DNA from: Verrucomicrobiia bacterium
GTDB lineage: Bacteria; Verrucomicrobiota; Verrucomicrobiia; Limisphaerales; DSYF01
DNA: 41,550 nucleotides
Reading direction: 5' to 3'
NCBI GenBank assembly: GCA_035765895.1
Contig: DASTWL010000002.1
Location: 1 to 41,550 of the forward strand
A program made the translations under genes and the position numbers. The notes below the pieces were generated by a model. That model was not told where the DNA came from and did not search any database. It worked only from the letters and a program-made list of their open reading frames with translations. Positions 4,799 through 26,364 of the stretch are shown piece after piece. The first letter of the stretch is position 1, and every line of letters begins with the position of its first letter.

Positions 4799-5695
4799 TT
4801 ACACGTCGCAAATGAGCACGCCCTGCTTGAGCGACGCGAGGGCGTCGGGGCGCCTGGGCACGAACTCCTGGGCCACGTAGCCCTTGTAGCCGGTGTCCAC
4901 GATGGCCTGCATGATGCGCGGGTAATGCAGTTCCTGGGTCTCGTCAATTTCGCCCCGGCCCGGCACGCCGCCGGTGTGGTAATGGTCGAAGTATTGGTGG
5001 TTCTCCCGGATGGTGTCGCACACGTCGCCATCCATGATCTGCATGTGGAAAATGTCGTAGAGCAGCTTGAACCGCTCCGAGCTGATGCGCTTGACCAGTT
5101 CCACGCCCCACGCCACATGGTCGCATTGGTAATCCTTGTGGCTGCGCTTGCTGTTCAGCAGTTCCATGCACAAGGTCACCTTCAGCTTTTCCGCGAGCGG
5201 CAGGATGCGCTTGAGGCCCGTTTCGCAGTTGTCCAATCCCTTGTCGTCGGCGAGTCCGTCGCGGTTCCCCGAGAAGCAGATCAGCCGTTCGAAACCCGCG
5301 TCGGCCGTTTCCTGGAGGCGCTTTTCATAGGCCTGCACCAGCTTGTCGTGATGTTCAATGCGGTTGAACGCCTTGCCGATGCCGCCCAAACCATCGATGA
5401 CCGGGAAGCTGACCATGGAGCAGGTCAGCCCATGCTTTTTGACCGTGGCGAATTCATCCGGATTGAGCAGGTCGATCGCCACCAGCCCGATTTCCTTGCC
5501 CGCCACACACAGGTCGTCGAGCGAAATCTTGCCGTAGCACCAGCGGCACGCGCTGTGATTGATGCGGCCCTTGAGCTTGGTGGGCGCGGGTGATTCGGCC
5601 CGGGCCAGTTGGGGCAGGGCGGTGGTGGCGGCGGCCACGGCGGCGCTGCCGGCAATTTTGCGGATGGCGGAGCGGCGGGACATGGTGGATTGCAT
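4799..5695 (-). CDS. Tat-exported xylose isomerase-like TIM barrel (hydroxypyruvate isomerase-type)
   Basis: 298 residues. The N-terminus carries a twin-arginine signal (SRRSAIRKIAG, hydrophobic Ala-rich core, cleavage near ARAES), so the enzyme should be folded in the cytoplasm and exported. The rest is an AP-endonuclease-2/xylose-isomerase TIM barrel. The expected metal ligands are present: Glu in LCMELLN, Asp and His in LLYDIFHMQ, His in FDHYHTGGVPGR and Glu in VAQEFVP, an arrangement typical of the Hyi/hydroxypyruvate isomerase group. Start ATG 5695 has AAGGA seven bases upstream; the longer frame to 5872 is rejected. Exported sugar isomerase/epimerase relatives are common in Verrucomicrobiota and Planctomycetota. 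The substrate is unknown. Confidence 0.85.
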   Translation of the reverse strand: MQSTMSRRSAIRKIAGSAAVAAATTALPQLARAESPAPTKLKGRINHSACRWCYGKISLDDLCVAGKEIGLVAIDLLNPDEFATVKKHGLTCSMVSFPVIDGLGGIGKAFNRIEHHDKLVQAYEKRLQETADAGFERLICFSGNRDGLADDKGLDNCETGLKRILPLAEKLKVTLCMELLNSKRSHKDYQCDHVAWGVELVKRISSERFKLLYDIFHMQIMDGDVCDTIRENHQYFDHYHTGGVPGRGEIDETQELHYPRIMQAIVDTGYKGYVAQEFVPRRPDALASLKQGVLICDV

Positions 5696-5859
5696 GGCCA
5701 ATCCTTTAGCAGGACAGCCGGGGAATGCACGCAAATTGGGCGCGGATGATTCGCCGGCCGTTGCGAAACGGCGGTTGCGACGCCCGCGGTGATTTGCCAA
5801 GTTCGGTGGCCGGCCAAAACCTTCCGGACCAGCCGAACTGGGATGCAGACACCGCGAAA

Positions 5860-7242
5860 ATGAAACTTCCAACTACTGTTCTTACGATGGCTATTGGCCT
5901 GTTGTGGGCGTGGTCCGCGGCGGCGCAGTCCAATGAAGCCTTGCTCAACAAGCTCGTTGAGAAGGGCATTTTGACCACGGACGAAGCGAAGCAGCTCAAG
6001 GCCGAATCAGAGCACCCCGCCGCGACGGCCTTCACCGCCAAGGCGGGCATGCCGCCGTGGGTCACGGCCTTCAAACTCGGTGGCGATTTTCGTGGCCGCT
6101 TTGATGACATTCTGCCCGACAATCAGGCGGGCGTTGACCGGTTGCGATGGCGCTACCGGATTCGCTTCGGATTCGTGGCGACGTTGCAGGACGACTTCGA
6201 GGTGGGCTTTCGGCTTGCTTCCGGCGACATGGACAGCGCCCTGGCCGCCGGGGCGAGTCCGTTGTCACCCAACCAGACCCTGCAGAACAACGGCTCCAAA
6301 AAGGGCGTCCTGATTGACCAGGTTTACGGGCGATGGATGCCCCTGCACACCGGGGCTTGGAAAGGTGACGTGGCGTTTGGGAAGCTGCCCGAGCCCTTTG
6401 TATTTTCCGAAATTGGCCTGGGCATCGATCCAGATTACTCGCCCGAGGGTGGTGCGCTGCAGTTGCAATACGAGCTGCGTCAGGGCCAAACCTTGCGCTG
6501 GATCAACGGCGGTTTCGTGCTCGATGAGATTTCACTGTCCAGCCACGATCCGTTCCTGCTTGGCAGCCAGTTGCGGTGGGAATCGCAATGGGCTTCGCAG
6601 TGGTCGTCGTCCCTGGGGCTGATGGTTTTTTCGTTTGCCAATGTGGACGAATTGAGCAACGGGGCGGTGCCCAACATGAACACGGGCAACTGGCGCGTGC
6701 TTCCCGCCGGCAGCGTCAGCGCGGCGGCGGCGGTTCCGCAGTTCAAGTTCAACCCCGTGCTGGCGGATGCCGCAATCACCTGGCGGGCCGCTCAAGTGCC
6801 GTGGTCTGCGGGGCCGTTTCCCGTCACGCTGGTGGGCACGTATTTGAACAATCCCGCGGCCCCCGCGAGCGCCGACAACTTCGGCTGGTCGGCGGGACTG
6901 GTCCTCGGCCGGACCGGCAAAAAGGGCACATGGGAGCTTTCCTATGAATACAAATGGCTTGGCGCAAATGCCATCTGGGAAGAGGTGGTGGACGACGATT
7001 TTGGCGGCTACTGGGCTTCCACGAGCGGATTGAACTTTGGCGTGAACGACGCACCCGGCTACTACACTGGCACCAACGTGCGCGGGCACATCGTGAGGCT
7101 GGCCTATTCCCCCTACGATTCTTTGACGCTCAGTGTGAAGTGGTATCTTACCGGCCTCATCAATGAACCGACGGTGAATGGCGGGACCGACCCCGCAAGC
7201 CTGGTTAACCGGGTCCAGGTTGACGCGCTCTGGCGGTTTTAG
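5860..7242 (+). CDS. Putative outer-membrane porin, tandem copy 1
   Basis: 460 residues. Signal peptide MKLPTTVLTMAIGLLWAWSAAAQ, then a short helical module (LLNKLVEKGILTTDEAKQL), then an aromatic-rich beta-barrel region ending in a terminal Phe (VDALWRF), the usual outer-membrane insertion signal. It belongs to the putative porin family (Porin_5-like). It is a clear paralogue of the next gene: shared segments include LNKLV-KGILT-EAK, FKL-GDFRGR, DPDYSPEGGALQ/DPDYTPEGGALQ and SSHDP-LLG. ATG 5860 gives a normal signal peptide; the frame opens earlier at 5725 but there it lies in the divergent promoter region. Solute specificity is unknown. Confidence 0.8.
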   Translation: MKLPTTVLTMAIGLLWAWSAAAQSNEALLNKLVEKGILTTDEAKQLKAESEHPAATAFTAKAGMPPWVTAFKLGGDFRGRFDDILPDNQAGVDRLRWRYRIRFGFVATLQDDFEVGFRLASGDMDSALAAGASPLSPNQTLQNNGSKKGVLIDQVYGRWMPLHTGAWKGDVAFGKLPEPFVFSEIGLGIDPDYSPEGGALQLQYELRQGQTLRWINGGFVLDEISLSSHDPFLLGSQLRWESQWASQWSSSLGLMVFSFANVDELSNGAVPNMNTGNWRVLPAGSVSAAAAVPQFKFNPVLADAAITWRAAQVPWSAGPFPVTLVGTYLNNPAAPASADNFGWSAGLVLGRTGKKGTWELSYEYKWLGANAIWEEVVDDDFGGYWASTSGLNFGVNDAPGYYTGTNVRGHIVRLAYSPYDSLTLSVKWYLTGLINEPTVNGGTDPASLVNRVQVDALWRF

Positions 7243-7380: not shown

Positions 7381-7398
7381 TTGTCACCGAATTGTCAC
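7381..7398 (+). promoter_or_regulatory. PHO box (PhoB-type direct repeat) upstream of porin-pst operon
   Basis: Two identical heptamers, TTGTCAC at 7381-7387 and TTGTCAC at 7392-7398, are separated by CGAA, giving an 11-bp period. This is the architecture of a PhoB box (consensus close to CTGTCAT N4 CTGTCAT). A TGTAAC hexamer at 7415-7420 could be the -10. The box lies 61 bp before the porin ATG at the head of the phosphate uptake cluster, which strongly supports phosphate-starvation control. Motif and position are seen; binding is inferred. Confidence 0.8.
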
Positions 7399-7458
7399 AA
7401 TGCCGCCGCATGGGTGTAACACGCCCGTCACAGTGTGTCCGTGCAACGCAATACTTGC

Positions 7459-8730
7459 ATGAAACACACCATGACCAAATACACGAAACTCGCACTGACC
7501 GCCGCCGGCGTCGCCGCCTCCGTGGCCTGCGCCAACAAGGCAACGGCCCAGTCGGATGACGCGCTGCTCAACAAGCTCGTTCAAAAGGGCATCCTGACCG
7601 AGGCCGAAGCCAAGGACTTGAGCAAGGAGAACGACAGGGAGTTTTCCAAGAACCTGTCTGCCAATCTCGGCTTGCCCGCCTGGGTGAGCTCGTTCAAGTT
7701 GAACGGCGATTTCCGCGGCCGGCTCGATTACCTCGGCTCGGACAACTCGGCGTTTACGGATCGTTACCGGCTGCGCTACCGCGTGCGCGCGGGCATCACC
7801 GCCAAGCTGCAGGATGATTTTGAAGTGGGCCTGACGCTGGGCAGCGGGGATTCCGGCGGCAACGCGCTGTCGAACAACACGACGCTCGAAAACAACGGCA
7901 CCAAGAAGCCCATCTGGATTGACAAGGCTTACGCGAAATGGACGCCCATTCACGACGGCGAGTGGACCCTCGGCACCACCATCGGCAAGATGGGCAACCC
8001 GTTCCAATTGTCGGCCATGGTGTTTGATCCGGATTACACGCCCGAGGGCGGGGCGCTGCAAGCCGGTTACAAGATCAACGACCAGCACTCGCTCCAGTTC
8101 AACACGGCCGGCTTCGTGGTGGATGAGCTGGGTGGTTCGTCGCACGATCCCTACCTGCTCGGCGCCCAGGCGTTGTGGAATGCCAGGTGGAGTTCCAAGG
8201 TGGACAGCTCTGTGGGCATTGCGGCCTTCGGCCTCGGCAACCGCGCGGGCAATGACGCCGCACTCGCCAACGGCAACACCGGCAACACGCAGAACAACTT
8301 CAATCCCTACGTCCTCAGCGGCAGCGCGACCTACAAGCTGGATCATTTCCCGCTTTTCCCGGGTGAATGCCCGATCAAGCTGGCGGGCGAATATATGGAC
8401 AATCCGGCGGTTTCGAGCAACGGCGAGGGGTATTCGATCGGGGCCACGCTTGGCAAGGCCGGCAAACGCGGCACGTGGGATCTCTCCTACCGCTACCAAC
8501 GCCTGGAGGCGGATGCCTGGTATGAGGGTTTTGTGGACGACGACAACGTCGCCTACAACGGGGGCATGATTCACGGCACCAACATCAAGGGCCACCTCGT
8601 CAAGCTGAACTACGCCCTCACTGATGCGCTGACCTTCACCTTCACCGGCTATTTCAACGATCTCATCAACGCCGGTCCGGCGAACAACGGCGGCACTCAC
8701 ATCATGGCTGATTTGATGTGGAAGTTCTAA
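7459..8730 (+). CDS. Putative phosphate-starvation porin, tandem copy 2, head of pst cluster
   Basis: 423 residues. Signal peptide (KLALTAAGVAASVACANKATAQ), helical LLNKLVQKGILTEAEAKDL module, then an outer-membrane barrel ending MADLMWKF with terminal Phe. It is paralogous to the porin just upstream but shorter. The PHO box 61 bp in front and pstS only 54 bp behind suggest it is cotranscribed with pst and admits phosphate or phosphorylated compounds across the outer membrane, in the role OprP/OprO play elsewhere; this is inference. ATG 7459 was chosen; ATG 7471 (MTKYTKLAL) is equally plausible and would leave the same mature protein. Confidence 0.8.
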   Translation: MKHTMTKYTKLALTAAGVAASVACANKATAQSDDALLNKLVQKGILTEAEAKDLSKENDREFSKNLSANLGLPAWVSSFKLNGDFRGRLDYLGSDNSAFTDRYRLRYRVRAGITAKLQDDFEVGLTLGSGDSGGNALSNNTTLENNGTKKPIWIDKAYAKWTPIHDGEWTLGTTIGKMGNPFQLSAMVFDPDYTPEGGALQAGYKINDQHSLQFNTAGFVVDELGGSSHDPYLLGAQALWNARWSSKVDSSVGIAAFGLGNRAGNDAALANGNTGNTQNNFNPYVLSGSATYKLDHFPLFPGECPIKLAGEYMDNPAVSSNGEGYSIGATLGKAGKRGTWDLSYRYQRLEADAWYEGFVDDDNVAYNGGMIHGTNIKGHLVKLNYALTDALTFTFTGYFNDLINAGPANNGGTHIMADLMWKF

Positions 8731-8784
8731 AGTTTCTCAACTGTAACCTGAATCCCAAATCATTTGTGGTCTAATCCCACGGAC

Positions 8785-9816
8785 ATGAAGAACCTCATGA
8801 ATACCTCGAAACTGTTTGCATTGGCCGCCGGCGCCCTCGTGGCGTTTGCGGGGCTCACCCAGGCGGCGGAACCGCTGCTCATCAACGGCGCGGGCTCCAC
8901 CTTCGACCTCCCGGCATTCTCCAAGTGGTTCGACGCCTACGCCAAGCTCGATCCCAACACGCGCTTCAACTACCAGTCCATCGGCTCCGGCGGCGGGCAG
9001 CGCCAGTTGCTCAACGAAACGGTGGACTTTGGCGCCTCCGATGCCCCCATGACGGACGAGGCGATGGCCAAGGGGCCGGGCAAAATCCTGCACCTGCCGG
9101 TTGTGGCCGGCGGCGTGGCGATCATCTACAACCTGCCCGGGAATCCGAAGCTCAAGCTCGACGGCGCAACGCTCGCGGACATTTTCCTCGGCAAGGTGGC
9201 CAAGTGGAACGACGCGCGGATCGCGGCGTTGAACCCGGGCGTGAAGCTGCCCGACATGGAAATCATCGTCGTGCATCGCTCGGACGGCAGCGGCACGACC
9301 TTCATCTTCACCGACTACCTCAGCAGCGTCAGTCCGGCGTGGAAATCGCAGGTTGGCAAGGATGTTTCCGTCAAGTGGCCCACCGGGCTGGGCGGCAAAG
9401 GCAGCGAAGGCGTGGCGGGCCAGGTCAAGCAACTGCCCGGCGCCATTGGCTACGCGGAACTCGCCTACGCCAACCAGAACAAGATGCCGTATGCCGATGT
9501 GAAGAATGCGGCGGGCAGTTTTGTCTCGCCCTCGCCGGAATCCGTCAGCGCCGCGCTCGCCACGGCCACGATTCCCGACGACTTCCGCTTCTCGATGGTC
9601 AATCCGCCGGGCGAAAAGGCCTACCCCATCGCCGGCGCCAGCTGGATTCTGGTGTATCAGCATCAGAAGAAGGCCGATCATGGCGAGAAGCTTGCCGGGT
9701 TTCTGAAATGGGCCGTGACCGAAGGGCAGAAGCTGTCGGCCCAGCTGGACTACGCGCCGTTGCCGGAAAATGTCCAGCAACGCGTGCTCAAGCTGGTTGG
9801 CACAATTAAATACTGA
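8785..9816 (+). CDS. pstS: Periplasmic phosphate-binding protein PstS
   Basis: About 343 residues. It delivers phosphate to the PstCAB ABC importer. A signal peptide ending LTQAAE has no lipobox, so the protein is soluble in the periplasm. Phosphate-contact segments are present: GAGSTF near the mature N-terminus, SGGGQRQLLNETVDFGASDAPM-type loop, and HRSDGSGTTFIFTDYLS. Length is normal for PstS. ATG 8785 was chosen; ATG 8797 is an alternative and no clear ribosome site separates them. It follows the porin by 54 bp and is separated from pstC by 102 bp holding a strong hairpin, consistent with higher expression of the binding protein than of the permease. Confidence 0.95.
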   Translation: MKNLMNTSKLFALAAGALVAFAGLTQAAEPLLINGAGSTFDLPAFSKWFDAYAKLDPNTRFNYQSIGSGGGQRQLLNETVDFGASDAPMTDEAMAKGPGKILHLPVVAGGVAIIYNLPGNPKLKLDGATLADIFLGKVAKWNDARIAALNPGVKLPDMEIIVVHRSDGSGTTFIFTDYLSSVSPAWKSQVGKDVSVKWPTGLGGKGSEGVAGQVKQLPGAIGYAELAYANQNKMPYADVKNAAGSFVSPSPESVSAALATATIPDDFRFSMVNPPGEKAYPIAGASWILVYQHQKKADHGEKLAGFLKWAVTEGQKLSAQLDYAPLPENVQQRVLKLVGTIKY

Positions 9817-9853: not shown

Positions 9854-9892
9854 GGGACGAAGAGCGAACAGTTCCTCCTCGCTCTTCGTCCC
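9854..9892 (+). terminator. 14-bp stem hairpin between pstS and pstC (attenuator or processing/stabilising element)
   Basis: GGGACGAAGAGCGA at 9854-9867 pairs perfectly with TCGCTCTTCGTCCC at 9879-9892 across an 11-nt loop. A short T run (ATTTTTA) follows a few bases later. Such elements after the binding-protein gene of an ABC operon commonly give partial termination or protect the upstream transcript from 3' decay, setting PstS above PstCAB. The hairpin is seen; the role is inferred. Confidence 0.7.
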
Positions 9893-9918: not shown

Positions 9919-10896
9919 ATGCCAGACGTTGCAACAACCGTTCCGAAGTCCGCGCCGGGTGAGCATCACCTGACGCAACACAAGTTCGGCGATCATGCCT
10001 TCAAATGGCTGACGCTGTTCATGGCATTGAGCGTGTTCGCCCTGATTGGGCTGATCGGCTACGAACTGGCGCACGGCTCGACGCTCGCCCTGAAGAAATT
10101 CGGCTGGCGCTTCCTCGTGAGCAGCGACTGGGATCCCGTCAGCGAACAGTTTGGCGCGCTGCCGTTCATCTTCGGCACGCTGGTGTCGTCGCTCATCGCG
10201 CTGGTCATCGCGGTGCCGCTCAGCGTGGCCAGCGCCGTGTTTCTCACCGAAATGGCGCCCCGCTGGTTGCGGCAGCCGCTGACCATCTTCATCGAGCTGT
10301 TGTCCGCCGTGCCGAGCGTCATTCTCGGCCTGTGGGGCATCTTCGTCATGGTGCCGTGGCTGCGGGTGCATCTCTTTCCCTGGCTGAAGAGCACGCTCGG
10401 TTTTTTGCCGCTGTTTCAAGGGCCGATCTACGGCGTCAGCATGCTGGCGGGCGGCATCATTCTCGCCATCATGATCATTCCCATCATCACGTCCGTCTCG
10501 CGCGAGATCATCCGTTCCGTGCCCGGCCTGCAACGCGAGGCGGCCTACGCGCTTGGCGCGACGCGTTGGGAGGTGACGCGCATCGCCGTCCTGAGCTACG
10601 CGAAGAAGGGCCTGTTTGGTGCGACGATTCTCGGACTCGGCCGCGCGTTGGGCGAGACGATGGCCGTGACGATGGTCATCGGCAACCGCCCGGAAATCGC
10701 CAAGTCCCTGTTCGCACCGGGCTACACGCTGGCCAGCGTGGTGGCGAACGAATTCACCGAGGCCACCACGGACCTCTACCTGCACGCGCTGTTTGAACTC
10801 GGGCTCGTGCTGCTGGGCGTGACCATTCTCGTCAACGCGCTGGCGCAGCTCCTTTTGAAAACCTTGGGCGGTCCGGGGGTGAAGGGACAACGCTAG
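9919..10896 (+). CDS. pstC: Phosphate ABC transporter permease PstC
   Basis: 325 residues. Inner-membrane permease of the PstSCAB importer. Multiple hydrophobic segments are visible, starting with WLTLFMALSVFALIGLIGY. The central BPD_transp_1 region shows the coupling loop REAAYALGATRWEVTRIAVL, with the EAA motif that contacts the ATPase. The N-terminal ~28 residues are a hydrophilic cytoplasmic extension. pstA begins 2 bp after its stop, indicating translational coupling. Confidence 0.95.
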   Translation: MPDVATTVPKSAPGEHHLTQHKFGDHAFKWLTLFMALSVFALIGLIGYELAHGSTLALKKFGWRFLVSSDWDPVSEQFGALPFIFGTLVSSLIALVIAVPLSVASAVFLTEMAPRWLRQPLTIFIELLSAVPSVILGLWGIFVMVPWLRVHLFPWLKSTLGFLPLFQGPIYGVSMLAGGIILAIMIIPIITSVSREIIRSVPGLQREAAYALGATRWEVTRIAVLSYAKKGLFGATILGLGRALGETMAVTMVIGNRPEIAKSLFAPGYTLASVVANEFTEATTDLYLHALFELGLVLLGVTILVNALAQLLLKTLGGPGVKGQR

Positions 10897-10898
10897 TC

Positions 10899-11753
10899 AT
10901 GAACGCGCCGAACCATCGCTGGCGGAAGTTCAAGAACGTCCTCATGCAGATCGTCACGCTGGCCTGTGCGCTGCTGGTGATTGCGCCGCTTTGCCTGCTG
11001 TTCTATCACCTGGTCAAATCGGGTTTCAGCGCGCTGAACTGGGCCTTCTTCACGCAACTGCCCAAGCCGGTCGGTGAACCGGGGGGCGGCATGGCCAACG
11101 CGATTGTCGGCACGTTCATCCTGCTCGGGCTGGCTGCGACGATCGGGGTTCCGGTCGGCGTGCTGGGCGGCGTTTATCTTTCCGAATATGGCTCGAACCG
11201 CTTGAACCGCTGGATCCGCTTTGGCGCCGATGTGTTGAACGGCGTGCCCTCAATCACGTGGGGCATGGTGGTCTATGCGCTGATGGTCGTGCCGATGAAG
11301 GGATTCTCCGCCTGGGCCGGCGGCATCGTGCTGGGCATGATGATGGTTCCGCTCATCATGCGCACCACGGAGGAGGTGCTGCAGCTGGTGCCCAACGGCT
11401 ATCGGGAGGCGTCCCTCGCGCTGGGCATCGCCCAATGGCGCACCATCGTCCAGATCGTCGTCCGCACCGCGCTCAAGGGCATTGTTACCGGGGTCCTGCT
11501 CGCGCTGGCCCGCGTGGCCGGTGAAACCGCGCCGCTGCTCTTCACGGCGTTTGGCAACCGCTACTGGAACCACAACCTTTCCGATCCCATCGCCGCGGTG
11601 CCGTTGCAGATTTTCAACTACGCCATTTCGCCCTACGAAGACTGGCACCGGCAGGCGTGGGCGGGCGCCCTCGTGCTGCTGCTGCTCATCACTTTCATCA
11701 ACGTGAGCGTTCGCGTCTTGACCCGCGACCGTCTTGCGCAAAAAAATCACTAA
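10899..11753 (+). CDS. pstA: Phosphate ABC transporter permease PstA
   Basis: 284 residues, second permease subunit of Pst. Six or so hydrophobic segments are visible, with a long periplasmic region after the first. The EAA coupling loop reads [21 protein letters not shown]. Conserved periplasmic segment [22 protein letters not shown] near the C-terminus is typical of PstA. It starts 2 bp after pstC and ends 2 bp before pstB, within a tightly packed operon. Confidence 0.95.
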
Positions 11754-11755
11754 GC

Positions 11756-12634
11756 ATGCCGACTCCCTTCGTTGCCGAACCGCCCCAGCCGAATCCGCCC
11801 GCGCCGGCGAACGCGCCCGTTCCGCCGCGCGCCGAGCCGGCCGCGCCCGCCGGCATCCAGGCCGGAACCGCGTCGCCTGAACTGGCGCTCACGGTCAAGA
11901 ACCTGAGCATTTTCTTCGGCGCCAACCAGGTGTTGAAAAACATTTCCATCAACATCCAGGCGCGTGCCGTGACGGCCATCATCGGCCCCAGCGGCTGCGG
12001 CAAATCCACCTTCCTGCGCTCGCTCAACCGCATGCACGAACTCGTTCCCGAGGCGCGCATGGAGGGCGAAATCCGCCTGTTCGGCCACGACATTTACAGC
12101 CACCAAGTTGATCCGGTGGTGGTTCGCCGCCGCGTCGGCATGGTGTTCCAGAAGTCCAACCCGTTCCCGACCATGTCCATCGCGGACAACGTCACGGTCG
12201 GGCTCCGGCTCAACGGCGTTCGCAACCGCAAGCTGCTCGTCGAACGCACGGAACAGGCGCTGCGCATGGGCGCCCTGTGGGACGAGGTCAAGGACCGCCT
12301 GAATGCGCCCGCCATCAGCCTTTCGGGCGGTCAGCAGCAACGCCTGTGCATTGCCCGCGCACTGGCGGTGCAGCCGGAAGTATTGTTGATGGACGAGCCC
12401 GCGTCGGCGCTCGACCCGATTGCCACTTCCCGCATCGAGGAACTGATCCTCGAATTGAAACAAAACCTCACCGTCGTCATCGTCACCCACAACATGCAGC
12501 AGGCGGCGCGCATGTCGGACTTTACGGCGTTCTTCTATCTCGGCTCGCTGGTGGAATTCAACACGACCGAAAAGATTTTCACCGCGCCGGCCAACAAGCA
12601 GACCGAGGATTACGTCACCGGCCGCTTCGGTTGA
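11756..12634 (+). CDS. pstB: Phosphate ABC transporter ATPase PstB with Pro/Ala-rich N-terminal extension
   Basis: 292 residues. Cytoplasmic ATPase powering phosphate import. Walker [10 protein letters not shown] (~76-84), Q-loop [15 protein letters not shown] signature LSGGQQQR (~189-196) and Walker [13 protein letters not shown] are all intact, followed by the switch His in IVTHNMQQA. The first ~42 residues are an unusual Pro/Ala-rich, probably disordered extension before the usual PstB start ([13 protein letters not shown]). ATG 11756 is 2 bp after pstA; no later ATG precedes the conserved core, so the extension is probably real. Confidence 0.95.
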
Positions 12635-12647
12635 TTTCATTTTGTCC

Positions 12648-13319
12648 ATGCAAACGCATCACGAGAAGGAACTGTCCGACCTCAAGGACCGGCTGCTCAT
12701 CATGGCCAGCCACGCGGAAATGGCCGTCACGCAGGCTGTCGAGGCCGTGGTCAACCGCGACGAGGCGCTCGCCCGCAAGGTCCGCGCCGACGACGAGACG
12801 CTGGACCGTTTCGAGGTGGAACTCGACGACATGGCCGTGCACCTCCTGGCCAAGGCGCCGCTGGCCACCGAACTCCGGCTCGTGCTCATGGTGATGAAAA
12901 TGTCCCAGAACCTGGAGCGCATCGGCGACGAGGCCTCGAAGATTGCCAACCGTGCCCGCGACCTCGCCCAGGAACCGCCGCTCAAGGTGAACGTGGACAT
13001 TCCGCGCCTCGCCCGGCTCGTCCTCGACATGTTGAAGGGCGCCCTCGACGCCTTTGTCCGCCGCGATGCCGAGGCCGCGCGCGCCTTGATCCCGCGCGAC
13101 AAGGAGGTCGATGCCCTCAACAAGCAGTTCCAGAACGACTTGATCGCCCTCATGGCCGAGAATCCGGAGAACATCCGGCGTGCGCTCTGGCTGACTGTTG
13201 TCTCCAAGAGCCTCGAACGCATTGCCGACCACGCCAAGAACGTGGCGGAAGACGTCGTATATCTCTGCGAGGCGCTCGACATCCGGCACAGTGGCAAGTC
13301 GGCGCCGACGGCCGCCTAG
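12648..13319 (+). CDS. phoU: Phosphate signalling/transport regulator PhoU
   Basis: 223 residues, all helical, two tandem PhoU domains (~1-105 and ~115-210). Each carries the acidic helix motif, LERIGDEASKIANRA in the first and LERIADHAKNVAED in the second. PhoU restrains PhoR/PhoB signalling and Pst activity when phosphate is plentiful. ATG 12648 lies 13 bp after pstB; the frame also opens at TTG 12642. The presence of phoU at the operon end supports Pho-regulon control of the unit. phoB/phoR are not in the window. Confidence 0.93.
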   Translation: MQTHHEKELSDLKDRLLIMASHAEMAVTQAVEAVVNRDEALARKVRADDETLDRFEVELDDMAVHLLAKAPLATELRLVLMVMKMSQNLERIGDEASKIANRARDLAQEPPLKVNVDIPRLARLVLDMLKGALDAFVRRDAEAARALIPRDKEVDALNKQFQNDLIALMAENPENIRRALWLTVVSKSLERIADHAKNVAEDVVYLCEALDIRHSGKSAPTAA

Positions 13320-13486: not shown

Positions 13487-13852
13487 ATGAAAGAATTCCT
13501 GAACCTGACCCGTGCGCTGGCGGACGAAAACCGTCTTCGCCTGCTGCTGGCGCTGCGCGGCGGCGAGTTGTGCGCCTGCCAGCTCACCGAACTGCTGGGG
13601 CTTGCGCCGTCCACCGTCTCCAAACATTTGTTCCTGCTCAAGCACGCCGGCCTTGTGGAATCGCGCAAGCAGGGGCGCTGGATTTACTTCCAGCTCACCG
13701 GCAAAGGCGCGCCGGTGGCGGTGCGCGAGGCGATGGACTGGGTCAACAAATCCCTCGGACGGTCATCCGCCGCGCTCACCGATGCCGGGCGGTTGAGGCA
13801 AATTTTGAAAGAGGATCCGAGCGAACTTTGCAAACGATTATGCCAAAACTGA
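13487..13852 (+). CDS. arsR: ArsR-family arsenic-responsive repressor
   Basis: 121 residues. Winged-helix ArsR/SmtB repressor that releases DNA on binding As(III)/Sb(III). The metal-site motif reads GELCACQLTELLG, with the CxC pair (ELCxC) at the start of the recognition region. The recognition helix (APSTVSKHLFLLKHAGLV) and wing (RKQGRWIYFQL) follow. It heads an ars operon and lies directly behind a palindromic operator. It overlaps arsC by 13 bp, so the two are translationally coupled. There is no clear ribosome site before the ATG. Confidence 0.93.
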   Translation: MKEFLNLTRALADENRLRLLLALRGGELCACQLTELLGLAPSTVSKHLFLLKHAGLVESRKQGRWIYFQLTGKGAPVAVREAMDWVNKSLGRSSAALTDAGRLRQILKEDPSELCKRLCQN

Positions 13853-14274
13853 AGGTTCTCTTTCTCTGCACCGGCAACTCCTGCCGCAGTCAGATGGCCG
13901 AAGGCTGGGCGCGGCATCTGAAGGGTGACGTGATCGAGGCGTATTCCGCCGGCATCGAGAAGCACGGCATGAATCCGCACGCGCTCAAGGTCATGGCCGA
14001 GGCGGGCGTGGACATCTCGAAGCAGTTTTCCAAGGCGCCGTCGGATCTCGGGCCGGTGGAGTTTGATTATATCGTCACCGTGTGCGGCCACGCGGATGAG
14101 AATTGCCCCGTGTTCCCCGCGAAGTCGAAGGTGGTGCACGTCGGCTTCGAGGATCCCCCCAAGCTCACGAAGCATCTCCCGGATGGCGAGGAGAAGCTGG
14201 CGGTGTATCGAAGGGTGCGGGACGAAATCCGGCGGTTTGTGGAGACGTTGCCCGGGGTGTTGCAAAACCGGTAG
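13840..14274 (+). CDS. arsC: Arsenate reductase, thioredoxin-coupled LMW-PTPase type
   Basis: 144 residues. It reduces arsenate to arsenite for export or methylation. The P-loop CTGNSCR (Cys10 to Arg16) and the redox pair Cys82/Cys89 (VCGHADENCP) reproduce the Cys10-Cys15-Cys82-Cys89 layout of the thioredoxin-linked Bacillus/Staphylococcus-type enzyme. The longer frame from 13471 runs through arsR out of frame and is rejected; ATG 13840 overlaps the arsR stop region. Confidence 0.94.
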   Translation: MPKLKVLFLCTGNSCRSQMAEGWARHLKGDVIEAYSAGIEKHGMNPHALKVMAEAGVDISKQFSKAPSDLGPVEFDYIVTVCGHADENCPVFPAKSKVVHVGFEDPPKLTKHLPDGEEKLAVYRRVRDEIRRFVETLPGVLQNR

Positions 14275-14292
14275 CGAGACGGGCGCCCGGCG

Positions 14293-15219
14293 ATGGATGA
14301 ACAACAATCGAAGAGCAAAGTTATGATCGAAACTCAATCTGAAGAAATTAGAAAGCTGGTGCGCGAGGGCTACGCGAAGATTGCGGAGGAAACCGCGAAC
14401 GGTGGTTGCGGATCAGGCGTTTCATGCTGCGGTTCGGCACCGCAGGACGCGAACAAACTGGCCAGCAAACTCGGTTACACAGTGGCTGAGCTGCAGGCGT
14501 TGCCCGAGGGCGCGAACATGGGCCTCTCGTGCGGCAATCCCGCCGCGCTCGCGGCGCTGAAGCCGGGCGAAACCGTCCTCGACCTCGGCAGCGGCGGTGG
14601 CTTCGACGTGTTCATCGCCGGGCGCAAGGTTGGCGCAACCGGTCGCGCCATCGGCGTGGACATGACGCCTGCGATGTTGTCCAAGGCACGCACGAATGCG
14701 GCGCAATACCGCGCGACGACGGGTTTGGACAACGTCGAGTTCCGGCTCGGCGAAATCGAGCATCTGCCCGTGGCGGACAATGCGGTGGACGCCATTATCT
14801 CGAACTGCGTGATTAATCTTTCGCCCGACAAGCCGCAGGTCTGGCGCGAAATGGCGCGCGTGCTCAAGCCGGGCGGACGCGTGGCGGTGTCGGACATGGC
14901 GCTGCTCAAGCCGTTGCCGTCGGAGGTGCTGAAGCTCGTCGAGGCGCTCGTCGGTTGCGTGGCCGGGGCGGTGCTGGTCACGGACACGGAGCGATTCGCA
15001 CGTGAGGCCGGACTGGAGAACGTCGCCGTGCGCGTGAAATCCGAATACGTGGTGGCGATGGAGCATTTTGAAGATCCGCTTTATCAGAAGATCACGGCGG
15101 CGCTGCCGGCGGGCGCGAAGCCGGAGGACTACGTCGCAAGCGTGGAAATCACCGCGTGCAAACCCGGCGGTCAGGATTGCTGCGGCACCGAGTGCTGCGA
15201 CGGAACACGGAACACGTAG
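14293..15219 (+). CDS. arsM: Arsenite S-adenosylmethionine methyltransferase ArsM
   Basis: About 308 residues. Class I SAM methyltransferase converting As(III) to methylated arsenicals. SAM motif I is VLDLGSGGGFDVF (~95-107). The three catalytic cysteines expected for ArsM fit LSCGNPA, SNCVINLSP and LVGCVAGAV. Additional Cys clusters flank the core: GGCGSGVSCCG at the N-terminus and QDCCGTECCDG at the C-terminus, which may bind arsenite or metal. ATG 14293 is used; ATG 14323 (MIETQSEEIRKLV) is a good alternative, since conserved family sequence begins about there. It follows arsC by 18 bp. Confidence 0.92.
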   Translation: MDEQQSKSKVMIETQSEEIRKLVREGYAKIAEETANGGCGSGVSCCGSAPQDANKLASKLGYTVAELQALPEGANMGLSCGNPAALAALKPGETVLDLGSGGGFDVFIAGRKVGATGRAIGVDMTPAMLSKARTNAAQYRATTGLDNVEFRLGEIEHLPVADNAVDAIISNCVINLSPDKPQVWREMARVLKPGGRVAVSDMALLKPLPSEVLKLVEALVGCVAGAVLVTDTERFAREAGLENVAVRVKSEYVVAMEHFEDPLYQKITAALPAGAKPEDYVASVEITACKPGGQDCCGTECCDGTRNT

Positions 15220-15258
15220 CACGGGCGTGACAGGATCAAGATTTCAATCAGGACCAAG

Positions 15259-16347
15259 ATGAAGGGCGAAAACGACACCCCGCACTCTGCGCCGTCCAAG
15301 CGTCTCGCCTTCTTCGAGCGTTACCTCACCGGCTGGGTGTTCGCCTGCATGGTAGTGGGCGTGGCGCTGGGCAAACTCGCGCCAGGACTCACGACGAGCC
15401 TGAGCAAGCTGGAGTTCGGCGAAGGCTCGCAGGTCAACGTCGCCATCGCGGTGCTCATCTGGTTGATGATTTACCCAATGATGCTCAAGGTGGACTTCGG
15501 TGCGATTGGCGGCGTGGCGCGGCGGCCCAAGGGACTTGGCGTGACGCTGTTTGTGAACTGGCTGGTGAAGCCGTTCAGCATGGCATTGCTCGGCTGGCTG
15601 TTCATGCAACACGTCTTTGCCACGTGGATCACGCCCGAGGCGGCGCGCGAATACACCGCCGGCCTTATCATCCTCGCCGCGGCACCCTGCACGGCGATGG
15701 TGTTCGTCTGGAGCTATCTCACCGACGGCGACCCGGCCTACACGCTCGTGCAGGTCGCCGTGAACGACCTCATCATGCTCTTCGCCTTCGCGCCCATCGT
15801 AATGTTTCTCTGCGGCGTGGCGAACGTCGTCGTGCCGTCGAACGTGCTCATCACGTCCGTCGTGGTGTTCATCGTGATTCCTCTGGCGGCGGGCTGGCTG
15901 ACGCGGACGGCGCTGCTGAAGTCGCATGGCAGGGAGTGGTTCGAGCAGAAGTTCCTGCCAAAGTTTCACCCGGTGACGATTGGCGCGCTGCTGCTGACGC
16001 TGGTGCTGATCTTTGCGTTCCAGGCGGAGAATCTGACCTCGCGCTGGTTCGCCGTGTTGCTGCTGGCCGTGCCGATCACGTTGCAGGTCTATTTCAATTC
16101 GTCGCTCGCCTACCTGCTGATGCGCTGGCTCAAGGTGCCGCACAACGTCGCCTCGCCCGGCGCGCTCATCGGCGCGAGCAACTTCTTCGAACTGGCGGTG
16201 GCGGTGGCCATCACGTTGTTCGGCCCCGGCTCCGGCGCCGCGCTGGCCACGGTGGTCGGCGTGCTCGTCGAAGTGCCCGTGATGCTCTCCGTCTGCAAGA
16301 TTTGCAACCAATCCCGTGGTTGGTATCAGCGGCAGGAGCAAGCGTAG
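15259..16347 (+). CDS. acr3: ACR3-family arsenite efflux permease
   Basis: 362 residues, about ten hydrophobic segments, inner membrane. It exports As(III). The conserved TM4 cysteine motif AAPCTAMVFVWS and the TM9 glutamate segment ASNFFELAVAVAITLFG, both essential in characterised ACR3 proteins, are present. It is the last gene of the arsR-arsC-arsM-acr3 operon, 39 bp after arsM. Often named arsB in annotations, but the sequence is of the ACR3 type, not the ArsB antiporter type. Confidence 0.94.
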   Translation: MKGENDTPHSAPSKRLAFFERYLTGWVFACMVVGVALGKLAPGLTTSLSKLEFGEGSQVNVAIAVLIWLMIYPMMLKVDFGAIGGVARRPKGLGVTLFVNWLVKPFSMALLGWLFMQHVFATWITPEAAREYTAGLIILAAAPCTAMVFVWSYLTDGDPAYTLVQVAVNDLIMLFAFAPIVMFLCGVANVVVPSNVLITSVVVFIVIPLAAGWLTRTALLKSHGREWFEQKFLPKFHPVTIGALLLTLVLIFAFQAENLTSRWFAVLLLAVPITLQVYFNSSLAYLLMRWLKVPHNVASPGALIGASNFFELAVAVAITLFGPGSGAALATVVGVLVEVPVMLSVCKICNQSRGWYQRQEQA

Positions 16348-19729: not shown

Positions 19730-20140
19730 CTATTCACCCTCGGTGGCGAGGCCCACTTTGGTGATATCGAGCTGCTGCAACACGTCCAGCACGCTGATCA
19801 TGCTCTGATAATCCACGTCATCCGAACCTTTCACCACGACCCGCACATCCGGATCGCCGGCCTTGAGTTGCTGCAGATCACTCTTCAATGCCGGAATCGT
19901 CACGGGCTGGTCGTTCAGAAACGTCTGGCCCGCGGCGTCCACGCTGATGCGGTTGATTTTTGGTTTCGGCTGCCGGGTGGGCGGCGGCGGTTTGCCGGAG
20001 GGCAGGGTCATCTCCAGGTTGTTCATCATCTGCGGCGTGGTGATGATGAAAATGACCAGCAGCACGAACACCAGGTCGAGCAGCGGCGTGATGTTCAGCT
20101 CGTTGAGCGTGCCGTGATGAGACTGGGAGGTTTTTTTCAC
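19730..20140 (-). CDS. exbD: ExbD/TolR-family proton channel subunit (second copy)
   Basis: 136 residues. Single N-terminal transmembrane helix containing the conserved Asp (LNITPLLDLVFVLLVIFIITT), then a periplasmic domain. With ExbB it uses the proton gradient to drive TonB. It is the last gene of the minus-strand cluster, 4 bp after tonB. It is related to the exbD upstream but not identical: the linker PSGKPPPPTRQPKPK is Pro/Lys-rich here. Confidence 0.92.
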   Translation of the reverse strand: MKKTSQSHHGTLNELNITPLLDLVFVLLVIFIITTPQMMNNLEMTLPSGKPPPPTRQPKPKINRISVDAAGQTFLNDQPVTIPALKSDLQQLKAGDPDVRVVVKGSDDVDYQSMISVLDVLQQLDITKVGLATEGE

Positions 20141-20144
20141 GCGG

Positions 20145-20828
20145 TCAGTCGATCGGGGCTGTGGCGAGTTCCTGCACGTCGAAGCGCACGACGAAGTGGG
20201 GCGGGAAATTCGTCGGCGGCGGGCGCTCCATTTTGGTTATTGCGGCGACAGCCTCGCGCACGGACGCATCCCAGCGCGGGTTGCCCGAGCCCTTGAGCCA
20301 CTCGGGATGGCTGATCCGGCCGTCGGGCCCGATGGAAACGCGCACCTCGGCCACGAAGCGGGCGTCGTCGATGTTTTCAGGCTTGTCCCAGCGGCTGGTG
20401 AAGGCGTATTGCAGCAGGCCGCGATAGATTTCAACAGGATTGGAACTCGTCTCCACGGTTTTGCCCCCGGCGAACTCAAACGCCGGCAGGTCCGCAGCGG
20501 GCGGTGCGACGGCCGGCGGCGCCACGGGGGCGGGCGGCGCCGTGACCTTCGGCGCCTCCACCAGTTTGGGGGCTTCCACCTTCGGGGTTGGTTTGGGCGT
20601 TTCGACTTTCGGCGGCTCCGTCTTGGGCTTGTCGGGCTCCTTGGGTTTCTCGGGCGGTTTTTCCTTCACCATTTCCACCGCGATTTTCTTCATCTGTTTG
20701 CCCAGCAGGCCGCCGCGCGCCGCGAGGTAAAGGCCCAAGGCCACGATGAGCCCGTGAAAGGTCAACGAGATGAGCAGGTTGACCTTGGACGAATTGCGGG
20801 CGGTGCGTTTCCGGGTTTGCGGAACCAT
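20145..20828 (-). CDS. tonB: TonB/TolA-like energy transducer
   Basis: 227 residues. An N-terminal membrane anchor (LLISLTFHGLIVALGLYLA) is followed by a Pro/Lys/Glu-rich periplasm-spanning region (~45-115, PPEKPKEPDKPK type) and a C-terminal TonB_2-type domain (RFVAEVRVSIGPDGRISHPEWLKG, WDASVREAVAAI). It transmits energy from ExbBD to outer-membrane proteins. ATG 20828 is 1 bp after the exbD stop, so they are coupled; the frame extending to 20858 overlaps exbD and is not needed. A TolA-like role is an alternative, but no tolB or pal is nearby. Confidence 0.88.
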   Translation of the reverse strand: MVPQTRKRTARNSSKVNLLISLTFHGLIVALGLYLAARGGLLGKQMKKIAVEMVKEKPPEKPKEPDKPKTEPPKVETPKPTPKVEAPKLVEAPKVTAPPAPVAPPAVAPPAADLPAFEFAGGKTVETSSNPVEIYRGLLQYAFTSRWDKPENIDDARFVAEVRVSIGPDGRISHPEWLKGSGNPRWDASVREAVAAITKMERPPPTNFPPHFVVRFDVQELATAPID

Positions 20829-20829
20829 G

Positions 20830-21240
20830 TTACTTGATCGGGTCGGTGGCGAGGTCAACCTTGGGCACGTTCGCCTGCTGGCAAACGTCGAGCACGGCGC
20901 GGATCTGGCGATACTTGGTGTGACTGTCGCCGCGCACGATGACGTTCAGGTCCGGATCATCCATCCGCAGGGCCACCAGCGTGTTCAACATTTCCCGGGC
21001 ATCGGCCACGCGCTGCTTGTTGAGAAACAGCGCGCCATCCGCCCGGACCGTGATGTAGTTCGCCTTGTGCGGCGGGTCCTTCAACCGTTTGGCGGCGCTG
21101 GGCAGCTTCAAATCCAGATCATTCACGGGCGGCGCCGTCGTGATGATGAAGATGACCAGCAGCACGAAGGCGAGGTCGAGCAACGGAGTGATGTTCAACT
21201 CCGTCACCGAATGATGCGCCGAATGGGAGCACTTTTTCAT
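20830..21240 (-). CDS. exbD: ExbD/TolR-family proton channel subunit (first copy)
   Basis: 136 residues. Transmembrane helix with the proton-carrying Asp (LNITPLLDLAFVLLVIFIITT) and a periplasmic domain ending KVDLATDPIK. Its start overlaps the exbB stop by 4 bp, and tonB starts 1 bp after its stop, so it is fully embedded in the operon. Two different ExbD proteins in one operon suggests a hetero-ExbD complex, as in several Bacteroidota and Xanthomonas-type Ton systems. Confidence 0.92.
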   Translation of the reverse strand: MKKCSHSAHHSVTELNITPLLDLAFVLLVIFIITTAPPVNDLDLKLPSAAKRLKDPPHKANYITVRADGALFLNKQRVADAREMLNTLVALRMDDPDLNVIVRGDSHTKYRQIRAVLDVCQQANVPKVDLATDPIK

Positions 21241-22109
21241 GCTCCCACGAGCGCGGCTTCACGTTTTTCCAGCGTGTGAATGAGCTGGCGGGCGAACGCC
21301 TCGTTGGCGCTGCGCAATTCCTCGGCGAGCGGGCGGTGGTCCACATAGACGTGCTCGACCTGGTTCGCGTAACGGCTGGCGAAGCCGTCAAGTTCCTGCG
21401 TGATGTGCCGGATGGTGGTGACCATGAAGTTGTAGGCGAACATGGCAGGAATCGCGACGAGCAGGCCCGTGACCGTGGCCACCAGTGCCGCGGCAACGCC
21501 GGGTGCCATGGCCGTCAAGCTGGCCGAATGGCTCTCCGCGATGCCGGCAAAGGTGGACATGACGCCCCACACCGTGCCGAGCAGGCCGATGAATGGCCCG
21601 CCCGCCACGGCGGTGGACAGCACGATCATGCCTTTTTCCAGGGCCATCGCCTGTTCCCCGGCGGCTTCCTCCATGACGACCTTTACGGCTTCGAACGAGC
21701 CCTGGTTGATTTTGACCCGGTTGGCCCGGGCCAGATGCTCCGTGGCGCCGTGCTGGCTGGCGTGGGCGGAGTGCACGGCGGGCCGCGTTTCGACGGGGTT
21801 GTTCTTCAAGTGATAGCCCAGCTCATCCGCGCCGCGGATGTAAAGCTGGTAGGCGGGCGCGCCTTCAAACGCTTCGCCCTTGCGTTGCACGTCCAGCGGG
21901 TCATGCGTCGCATTGTAAGCGGCCATGAATTTTTTGGTCGCTTTCCGGGCAATGTGAATTTGCCGGTATTTGGTCAGGATGACCGTCCAGCTGAACAGCG
22001 ACAGGGCGAACAGCACACCAACGGTGATCAGGCCTTCGGTCGTGGCGTTCTTGATGGCATAGACCGCCGCGTTCGAGGCGAACAAGGGGTGGAAGAATTC
22101 AGGGTTCAT
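21237..22109 (-). CDS. exbB: ExbB/TolQ/MotA-family proton channel protein
   Basis: 290 residues, inner membrane. Three transmembrane segments are visible: GLITVGVLFALSLFSWTVIL, STAVAGGPFIGLLGTVWGVMSTF-type and ATVTGLLVAIPAMFAYNF, with the conserved family motif GLLGTVWG. The long cytoplasmic segment between TM1 and TM2 is typical. It follows the porin gene by 35 bp and overlaps exbD by 4 bp. Confidence 0.92.
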   Translation of the reverse strand: MNPEFFHPLFASNAAVYAIKNATTEGLITVGVLFALSLFSWTVILTKYRQIHIARKATKKFMAAYNATHDPLDVQRKGEAFEGAPAYQLYIRGADELGYHLKNNPVETRPAVHSAHASQHGATEHLARANRVKINQGSFEAVKVVMEEAAGEQAMALEKGMIVLSTAVAGGPFIGLLGTVWGVMSTFAGIAESHSASLTAMAPGVAAALVATVTGLLVAIPAMFAYNFMVTTIRHITQELDGFASRYANQVEHVYVDHRPLAEELRSANEAFARQLIHTLEKREAALVGA

Positions 22110-22124
22110 AAGCGGTGCAACATT

Positions 22125-22142
22125 CCGGTCCGGCGGGACCGG
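22125..22142 (-). other. Intercistronic hairpin between porin and exbB
   Basis: CCGGTCC (22125-22131) and GGACCGG (22136-22142) form a perfect 7-bp GC-rich stem with a 4-nt loop. It starts 2 bp beyond the porin stop codon and lies just before exbB. No T tract follows on the transcribed strand, so a full terminator is unlikely. It may protect the porin mRNA or attenuate read-through into exbB-exbD-tonB-exbD. Confidence 0.5.
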
Positions 22143-22144
22143 GG

Positions 22145-23770
22145 TTAAAACTTCAGTGTCAGGTCAACTTGAAAGAGATTGAAGTTGTCGATGGGGTTGA
22201 TCTGCGGCAGGTCCTGGTTGCTGCCGCCGGTGCCGAGACGCTTGTTGATGCGTTGGGCGTGGGCGTAGCGGAACGAGCCGATGAAATGGCGGCTCAGCCC
22301 GTAGGAGACCTGCACGTTGATGCCTTCCAGGTTCTCGCGGCCCTCGAACGTGTCCGAATCGATGAGGTTCGGGTCGAGCGAATACTGTTCGGTGTGCTGC
22401 CAGAAGGTCTTGAACTCCCACGGATGCCGCGCGGCCCAGCCCGTGTCGCTGCCGAGCGCAAACCCGATCTGGTAGGCCATGTTTTCGTCCGTTTGCGGCG
22501 CGAACGGCTGCACGTTGGGGGTGGTGGGTTGATTGGCGAGCCAGTTCGCGTAGCCGGCGGCGGCGGCCTTGGCGCGGTCGGAGCCTTGGAGATTGTAGGC
22601 CACGTCGCCAAACACGCGTGCGTCCAGCTGGCGCAGCTTGAAATTCAGTTCAAACGGCACCTCGACCACGAGCAGGTCGTTCAGACCCACTTGATTGAGC
22701 GGAAAGCCCGTGCTGCCGTAACCGGGCAGCGAACTGGATGTGCCGTAGCCGCTGGAGCCGTTGACGGTTCCCGAACCGGGCCCGAGATACGCACCCTCGC
22801 CAACATACGGATCGCCAAAATACGGCGACAATGCTCCGGGGCCCGTGGTGGAACTGCGCTGCCGGCCGAGGTAGTGATAAATCGTGGCGGCAACTTTGGC
22901 CGTGGTGTTGGTGGTGAGGTGGTATTTGAAACCGGCCTGCCACGCGAGTTGGAAGACGTTTTCGGTGTTTTGTCCGGCCAGTCCGTTGAAACCAAGCCCG
23001 CCGTCGGCCGAAGCCGGATTCACGTCCTGGTAGATGAACTGGCCGAATGTGGCGAAGAAATCCGCTTCGCCCACCACGTAATGGAAACGTTCCGCCGCGC
23101 CCTCGACGTTGAGGTCGGAATCCCACACGAGCGGCGTCGTGAAGAGAGGGTTCGGCATCTTGCCGACGGTGAGATCCATCCAATCCCAACGGGCGGGATG
23201 CCAGCCGACATACGCCTGGCCGATTGCGATGCCGGCCGATGACTTGCCGAAGGGCCCCTGGTAGGGCGAACCACTGGATGACGTGCCTAAGCTCACCCAG
23301 GACGAGCGCGGGTTGGCGGAGGTGTCCAGCCGGACGCCGTAATAAAAGTCGTCAAAAAAATCGCCGTGCAAGCCCACGCGCACGGCATAGCGGAAGCGCT
23401 GCAAATCCACGCTGCCGCCCGGCGCCTCGACCGAGCGGTCTTCGTAGCGCAACCGCACGTCGCCGAACAATTCGAGCTTCTGGACGGTGTCGCTAATTTT
23501 CCAACGCGACGGGGGAATATGCGGCATCTCGGTCCGGTTCGTGCGCAGCGCTTCAATCTCGGAGCGTGCCTTGGCCGCTTCGCCTTCCGTGATGAAACCC
23601 TTTTGCAAAAACAAATTGATGATCGGGTCGGAAGTGTCTTCGCCCCGGCCCGCCAAGCGCCCGGCGGCGAGCAGGGCGGTGGTCAGAACTACCGTCCAAC
23701 GGACGGATAGAAACCTGGTCTGGCTGCGGAGCGGGTTGGAGCTCCGTGTCGCGGCGACATTAATTCGCAT
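22145..23770 (-). CDS. Putative outer-membrane porin heading the TonB-ExbBD cluster
   Basis: 541 residues. A long signal region (TVVLTTALLAAGRLAGRGED) is followed by the same short helical module as the other two porins (LFLQKGFITEGEAAKARSEIEAL) and a large aromatic-rich barrel ending FQVDLTLKF with terminal Phe. The family is a putative Porin_5-like protein. No plug domain or TonB box is recognised, which makes its position at the head of a TonB operon notable. A palindrome lies ~45 bp upstream of the ATG. Confidence 0.8.
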   Translation of the reverse strand: MRINVAATRSSNPLRSQTRFLSVRWTVVLTTALLAAGRLAGRGEDTSDPIINLFLQKGFITEGEAAKARSEIEALRTNRTEMPHIPPSRWKISDTVQKLELFGDVRLRYEDRSVEAPGGSVDLQRFRYAVRVGLHGDFFDDFYYGVRLDTSANPRSSWVSLGTSSSGSPYQGPFGKSSAGIAIGQAYVGWHPARWDWMDLTVGKMPNPLFTTPLVWDSDLNVEGAAERFHYVVGEADFFATFGQFIYQDVNPASADGGLGFNGLAGQNTENVFQLAWQAGFKYHLTTNTTAKVAATIYHYLGRQRSSTTGPGALSPYFGDPYVGEGAYLGPGSGTVNGSSGYGTSSSLPGYGSTGFPLNQVGLNDLLVVEVPFELNFKLRQLDARVFGDVAYNLQGSDRAKAAAAGYANWLANQPTTPNVQPFAPQTDENMAYQIGFALGSDTGWAARHPWEFKTFWQHTEQYSLDPNLIDSDTFEGRENLEGINVQVSYGLSRHFIGSFRYAHAQRINKRLGTGGSNQDLPQINPIDNFNLFQVDLTLKF

Positions 23771-23814
23771 CGCCTGATGCTAAGGAAGGCGAAGCGACGG
23801 TTTGGTGGCGCAAG

Positions 23815-26311: not shown

Positions 26312-26364
26312 ACCCGATTCACGAAAACCAGTAACAGCAACCAAAAAGAAACAGCAACCAGAAC

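Follow-up and report, generated by a model that had tools for sequence, protein, structure and literature searches.

Gene content of the locus

The window, i.e. the whole stretch of 41,550 nucleotides that was analysed, is one entire contig of a 4.64 Mb draft genome. It contains three genes of the Porin_5 family, one of which (porin1) heads a cluster of phosphate uptake genes:

5863..7242, plus strand: porin0, another Porin_5 gene, adjoining the pst cassette on its upstream side
7471..8730, plus strand: porin1, Porin_5 family, 419 aa, signal peptide, predicted 16-strand barrel
8785..9816, plus strand: pstS, phosphate-binding protein of the TIGR00975 type, NCBIfam cut-off exceeded
9919..10896, plus strand: pstC, permease (TIGR02138)
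10899..11753, plus strand: pstA, permease (TIGR00974)
11753..12634, plus strand: pstB, ATPase (TIGR00972)
12642..13319, plus strand: phoU (TIGR02135)
22145-23779, minus strand: third Porin_5 gene

The five genes from pstS to phoU each score above the respective NCBIfam cut-off and follow one another in this order on one strand, and the window's PstS resembles solved structures of the E. coli type (about 1e-88). The start of porin1 is placed at the ATG at 7471, with an alternative in-frame ATG at 7459. As the original prediction had it, pstS-pstC-pstA-pstB-phoU begins 54 bp after the porin, which ends at 8730, the ATG of pstS being at 8785. This gap has neither an unusual hairpin (z 0.08) nor a listed terminator. 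Relatives of the locus were collected by two peptide patterns in the porin, regardless of neighbourhood, and the best 80 of 137 were kept, most of them recorded as Verrucomicrobiota and a few under other taxa or none. In these the porin–pstS gap has a median length of 54 bp, and only 1 of 72 measurable loci contains five consecutive T in it. Thus, the short gap, with no unusual hairpin or listed terminator, fits one transcript.

The upstream neighbour, porin0, lacks a PHO-like box: the best site in 5600-5863, on either strand, has 5 mismatches. We rejected the idea that it is a tandem duplicate of porin1, since it pairs with L253, an unlinked porin of the congener G319 (56% identity, 100/100 support). 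Downstream of the third Porin_5 gene and in the same orientation lie genes of the ExbB and TonB types and an ORF that by eye resembles ExbD (19730-23779, minus strand), so that here a porin adjoins a TonB energising system.

A PhoB-type promoter upstream of the porin

The region preceding porin1 contains the following elements:

7381..7398, plus strand: distal PHO box with two perfect TTGTCAC half-sites (7381-7387 and 7392-7398), conserved in relatives
7403..7420, plus strand: proximal PHO box; its half-site at offset 33 shows conservation across the 61 aligned loci
7431..7436, plus strand: -10 element CAGTGT at offset 50 (A51 in 57/61, T55 in 60/61)

The perfect PHO box that had been noticed ahead of the porin, TTGTCAC-CGAA-TTGTCAC at 7381-7398, indeed has 0 mismatches. 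PHO-like sites with up to three mismatches occur in the window at chance level (5 versus 2.6 expected), and therefore the perfect site alone counts there. Only two perfect boxes exist in the whole genome (4,636,328 bases), at 7381 and at C87:4763, against an expectation of ~0.04 (calculated for 14 fixed bases with equal base use on two strands). Directly behind the latter site comes a gene whose product combines response-regulator and winged-helix domains; the next gene encodes PAS and HisKA domains, and we take the pair as phoB and phoR (OmpR-type regulator and PAS-HisKA kinase, the kinase being read to the end of the locus only). A single PHO-like site of the genome has one mismatch (L006, G000:C7:21284-21301, minus strand); it overlaps the start of an oppositely oriented gene whose product has a VTC (polyphosphate polymerase) domain.

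Half-sites at offsets 0, 11, 22 and 33 read TTGTCAC, TTGTCAC, CCGCCGC and GTGTAAC in the window and TTGTCAC, TTGTCAC, CCGTCGC and CCGTCAT at the C87 site. Given the offset-33 half-site and the -10 element, the box at 7381 is the distal half of a four-unit array. The proximal half of this predicted array, composed of the degenerate CCGCCGC (7403-7409) and GTGTAAC (7414-7420), occupies the position expected of a -35 element, and transcription would start near 7443.

Conservation was assessed by scanning the 260 bp upstream of the porin for TTGTMAC-N4-TTGTMAC and taking the best match, in 79 of the best 80 of 137 relatives (L183, with 1 base upstream, was left out). The box is found with at most one mismatch in 46/79 and with at most two in 61/79 loci, as compared with 0 and 0.4% of 1580 shuffles and 0/79 and 3/79 on the opposite strand. 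The 61 loci within the two-mismatch limit were then aligned on the box without gaps. Almost nothing is conserved directly before the box (-22 to -1), and an extra half-site follows at 33-39 (G in 60/61, A in 60/61), as does a -10 element, CAnnnT, at 50-55. Since the loci were picked by the box, its own conservation in the footprint is partly a product of selection; that of the offset-33 half-site and the -10 element is free of this effect. Collectively, the box, its conservation and the promoter footprint argue for the PhoB-type control implied in the original prediction, and the traits of a Pho regulon are present, namely, PHO boxes ahead of a -10 element and PhoB/PhoR-like genes behind the same box.

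Linkage of the porin to two types of Pst system

A pstS gene lies downstream of the porin on the same strand in 74 of the best 80 of 137 relatives. In 14 of these it is of the window's type (TIGR00975) and in 60 of another type by similarity; three PstS of the latter type, two from these loci and one from congener G319, were compared with NCBIfam and correspond to TIGR02136. The aligned porin and pstS segments are no more than 295 bp apart in 73/74 loci, the remaining one (L159) having phoU in between. The six relatives with no downstream pstS are L113, L124, L127, L129, L146, which has 1.3 kb of contig left after the porin, and L184. An ORF at 26335-27606 of the window contains GSTAFR and by eye resembles phosphate-binding-like proteins, with no Pfam match; L127 and L129 have comparable ORFs close to their pst-less porins. 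In a reverse search, 20 of the 30 best pstS loci, the window included, have a related porin as the longest upstream ORF; the other 10 comprise one porin remnant at a contig edge and nine with none, some of which are short of upstream sequence.

Linkage extends beyond the order. In a sample of 288 genomes of the phylum, the porin is matched in 61, the window's own included, and no other matching genome is marked as belonging to the same order. The other 60 genomes yield 62 matches, 43 of which have pst or phoU within 3 kb (pst in 37, on the same strand in 35) and 19 of which are unlinked at that distance. Linkage is found for 27/29 of the best-scoring and 16/33 of the weaker matches, as separated by profile-score thresholds set in this analysis. 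Several of these porins adjoin phoB or phoR, and their places vary (before pstB, beside phoU, between phoR and pstS) within the cluster. The box is weak outside the window's order, being found with at most two mismatches ahead of 10/43 linked and 2/19 unlinked porins, at a shuffle rate of about 2-3%. Because relatives share ancestry, none of these locus counts are independent. With this reservation, the physical link between porin and inner-membrane importer that had been read from the single locus holds in 74 of the best 80 of 137 relatives, and the synteny check across Verrucomicrobiota, at 43/62 matches outside the order, bears it out. In the literature searched, no title or abstract start that was listed describes the porin–pst linkage, and we claim no priority.

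The distribution of the two Pst types was mapped onto a maximum likelihood tree of 85 porins. At least four changes between TIGR00975 and the other type are forced by well-supported branches; bootstrap trees give 4-5, and a quicker tree with five outgroup rows gives 5 instead of 4. For example, L147 and L133 are sister porins (100/92) with different Pst types. By these sequence assignments, the porin subfamily stands at the head of Pst systems of two kinds, and the porin tree implies at least four exchanges between them. Within the window's own genus, a porin of the congener G319 precedes a TIGR02136-type system, the G319 PstS has no match in the window genome at 1e-5, and porin1 groups apart from the pst-linked porin of G319. 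Porin and importer thus both differ, and the whole porin–importer cassette may have been replaced within the genus.

These data bear on whether the porin might be a bystander that sits in the cluster by history and serves another solute. Six of the best 80 of 137 copies and 19/62 outside the order are indeed located elsewhere, and porin0 and the third Porin_5 gene exemplify family members apart from PHO control. However, the gene order persists at porin identities of roughly 40-60% and through at least four Pst exchanges, the porin outside the order shifts its place yet remains in the cluster, and three relatives devoid of pstS (L113, L127 and L129) retain the box with one mismatch. We consider a bystander role very improbable.

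Downstream of phoU, the window has arsR, arsC, arsM and a gene for an ACR3/SBF-type transporter (13487-16347), and it could be asked whether an arsenic island explains the arrangement, porin and Pst serving arsenate handling. Among the 40 relatives in which the sequence continues for at least 2.5 kb beyond phoU, arsR is found downstream within 2 kb in five (L117, L123, L136, L141 and L188), with either Pst type. By contrast, 35/40 have no arsR match at this place, and the porin linkage is general, which leaves arsenate handling as the least probable of the explanations weighed here.

A sequence-conserved hairpin between pstS and pstC

9855..9891, plus strand: sequence-conserved hairpin between pstS and pstC (region z -2.78)

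The hairpin, with a 12-bp stem and a TTCCTCC loop, is nearly letter-identical in 12 of the 14 relatives with the window's Pst type, diverged yet recognisable in L134 and absent in L145; it was not found in the 60 relatives with the other type. A model search gave 24 matches in 23 of 320 genomes, 23 of them at the end of pstS (a broken pstS in G300) and one at a contig end before pstC. The hairpin is not a dispersed repeat, being present in one copy in the genome, nor could it be assigned to a known RNA family, Rfam giving three matches only, all far below gathering scores. None of the 12 pairs changed on both sides, i.e. covariation is nil, and an RNA structure is thus not proven. The hairpin is likely a processing, stabilising or attenuation element that would keep PstS above PstCAB.

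Porin family and predicted barrel

The assignment to Porin_5 rather than to the OprP/OprO family, as originally predicted, is supported by profile comparisons. Porin1 matches Pfam Porin_5 (PF16930) at 1e-34 (120.5 bits, curated cut-off 22), and at E <= 1 all 80 aligned members match this family and none matches that of OprP/OprO, Porin_O_P, which we take to be PF07396. The alignment (A2) comprises 78 of the best 80 of 137 loci and two window porins; L163 and L183 were left out. No sequence relatives of porin1 were found among solved structures at E <= 1. An AlphaFold2 model built from the 80-row alignment (pLDDT 88.9, pTM 0.84) has 16 strands and a less certain N-terminal helix. Its best solved fold match is OmpM1 (Z 26.2 over 284 residues, 19% identity), followed by OprO (Z 21.2), Vibrio OmpT and OprP (Z 20.9, 301 residues), at values close to those of many general porins. 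Since the 16-strand barrel is common to general porins, it is not distinctive for OprP/OprO.

The predicted wall includes a cluster of arginines:

7714..7788, plus strand: codons of the seven-arginine cluster R49, R51, R65, R67, R69, R71 and R73 (residues counted from 7570)

In the model, R65, R67, R69, R71 and R73 form a row on strand 2, and R49 and R51 are on strand 1. Taking the more polar face of the strands as the lumen side, the seven arginines probably face the lumen, and the wall so assigned has 16 K/R versus 8 D/E. Within the order (78 loci) the arginines reach 92-100% conservation, and in 43 linked loci outside it 95-100%. They are also present at 80-100% in 20 rows without pst or phoU within 3 kb, comprising the 19 unlinked matches of the 62 outside the order and the window's third Porin_5 gene, although some of these rows have relevant genes past the cut-off (pstS at 3.9 kb in L244, phoR at 3.8 kb in L237) and L223 has phoB 1.7 kb away. 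Likewise, the mean net charge of the lining is +6.2 in the order, +8.6 in linked porins outside it and +7.9 in unlinked ones. The occurrence of the arginines in linked and unlinked rows suggests that an anion-friendly wall is likely a family trait. The arginine cluster was accordingly discarded as a diagnostic signature of phosphate. As regards the Arg/Lys lining that had been proposed as a check, a basic lining is likely, with seven conserved arginines along the polar side of the first two strands, whereas a phosphate-specific character is not supported so far, the unlinked relatives having the arginines too.

How far, then, does the porin discriminate in favour of phosphate? A truly phosphate-selective porin, i.e. 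a counterpart of OprP from a different family that binds its substrate at the constriction, would be in keeping with the starvation promoter, the operon position and the net basic lumen-facing residues of the model. The basic lining, however, fails to separate linked from unlinked porins, and the OprP family has no sequence match here. We regard such a porin as unlikely, though well ahead of a bystander or an arsenic island, and the phosphate-selective channel of the original prediction is not supported so far, given the arginines of unlinked relatives and OmpM1 as the closest fold. A general pore, at most mildly anion-preferring, which is induced by PhoB for permeability and has no phosphate-binding site, has nearly an even chance. 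It agrees with the arginine cluster shared by unlinked relatives and with the fold comparison, in which OmpM1 (Z 26) comes first and OprP and OprO (Z about 21) are level with general porins; transport by OmpM1 is described as non-specific and size-limited, with many small solutes carried (PMC10628300). Yet a general pore would not need so constant a position within the pst operon across much of a phylum.

The porin as the probable outer-membrane entry for phosphate

The best explanation is that porin1 serves as the PhoB-induced outer-membrane entry of the Pst phosphate uptake line, to which we assign a probability of roughly 70%. It draws on the box, the promoter footprint, the gene order and its conservation, the porin family and the predicted fold. 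When phosphate is scarce, PhoB would bind the tandem half-sites, with their 11-bp spacing, at the -35 position, and transcription would run from near 7443 through the porin into pstS-C-A-B-phoU as a single message. The barrel, its wall probably bearing a row of arginines, would admit phosphate, presumably its main cargo, and other small anions to the periplasm, where PstS would bind it and PstCAB would carry out the import. The outer-membrane and inner-membrane parts of the uptake route are thus probably produced together, in this bacterium and in most of the relatives examined. This explanation does not include strict phosphate selectivity, the model pointing to a basic pore; a general pore departs from it only in that phosphate would be one of many solutes.

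A broader proposal is put forward tentatively, at slightly less than even odds and a shade below those of the general pore. A porin subfamily outside the OprP family would be dedicated, in much of Verrucomicrobiota, to the outer-membrane step of phosphate uptake, coupled so firmly to Pst that the importer (TIGR00975 versus TIGR02136) was exchanged at least four times beneath it, porin and Pst forming one trans-envelope uptake line. The crossing of the outer membrane by phosphate is known in detail for few bacteria, and a porin in a pst operon with a conserved PhoB-type promoter gives this large and mostly uncultured phylum a candidate that can be tested. As it lies outside the OprP family by sequence, a homology search starting from OprP would miss it. 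Furthermore, the association of the porin subfamily with two Pst systems offers a direct test of functional coupling versus mere co-induction of pore and importer.

Comparison with known systems

PhoE and OprP are starvation-induced porins. OprP and OprO of Pseudomonas aeruginosa resemble porin1 in the 16-strand fold, in starvation control, which is predicted for porin1, and in having an arginine cluster, which in porin1 probably faces the lumen, but belong to a different family (no Pfam match in 80 members at E <= 1). Their genes are located apart from pst, whereas porin1 is inside the pst operon. PhoE of E. coli is, like porin1, a PHO-box-controlled porin, although of another family and encoded outside the pst operon, and is usually described as a general pore induced in starvation, without a phosphate-binding site. 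In E. coli, half-sites with 11-bp spacing are placed ahead of a -10 element, and the pstSCAB-phoU operon with its PHO boxes is like that of the window in this layout and in the TIGR00975-type PstS. The window operon differs in that the porin gene comes first and a conserved hairpin follows pstS.

The nearest solved fold, OmpM1 of Veillonella parvula, is a tether and a general pore, with no phosphate link seen in the passages describing it (PMC10628300). In Bacteroides fragilis, BF0375, a gene for polyphosphate-selective porin O, is listed among the Pho-regulon genes, another porin O gene, BF2289, changes in the opposite direction in the same table, and pstS is described as head-to-head with pstCAB-phoU (PMC3547664). 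There, the porin O genes are annotated as members of a family other than that of porin1. For freshwater Planctomycetes, another study infers OprO/OprP together with PhoR-PhoB (PMC6461901). By analogy with these systems, a PhoB-induced outer-membrane entry for Pst is a known kind of function; what differs here is the family of the porin and its lasting place in the pst cluster.
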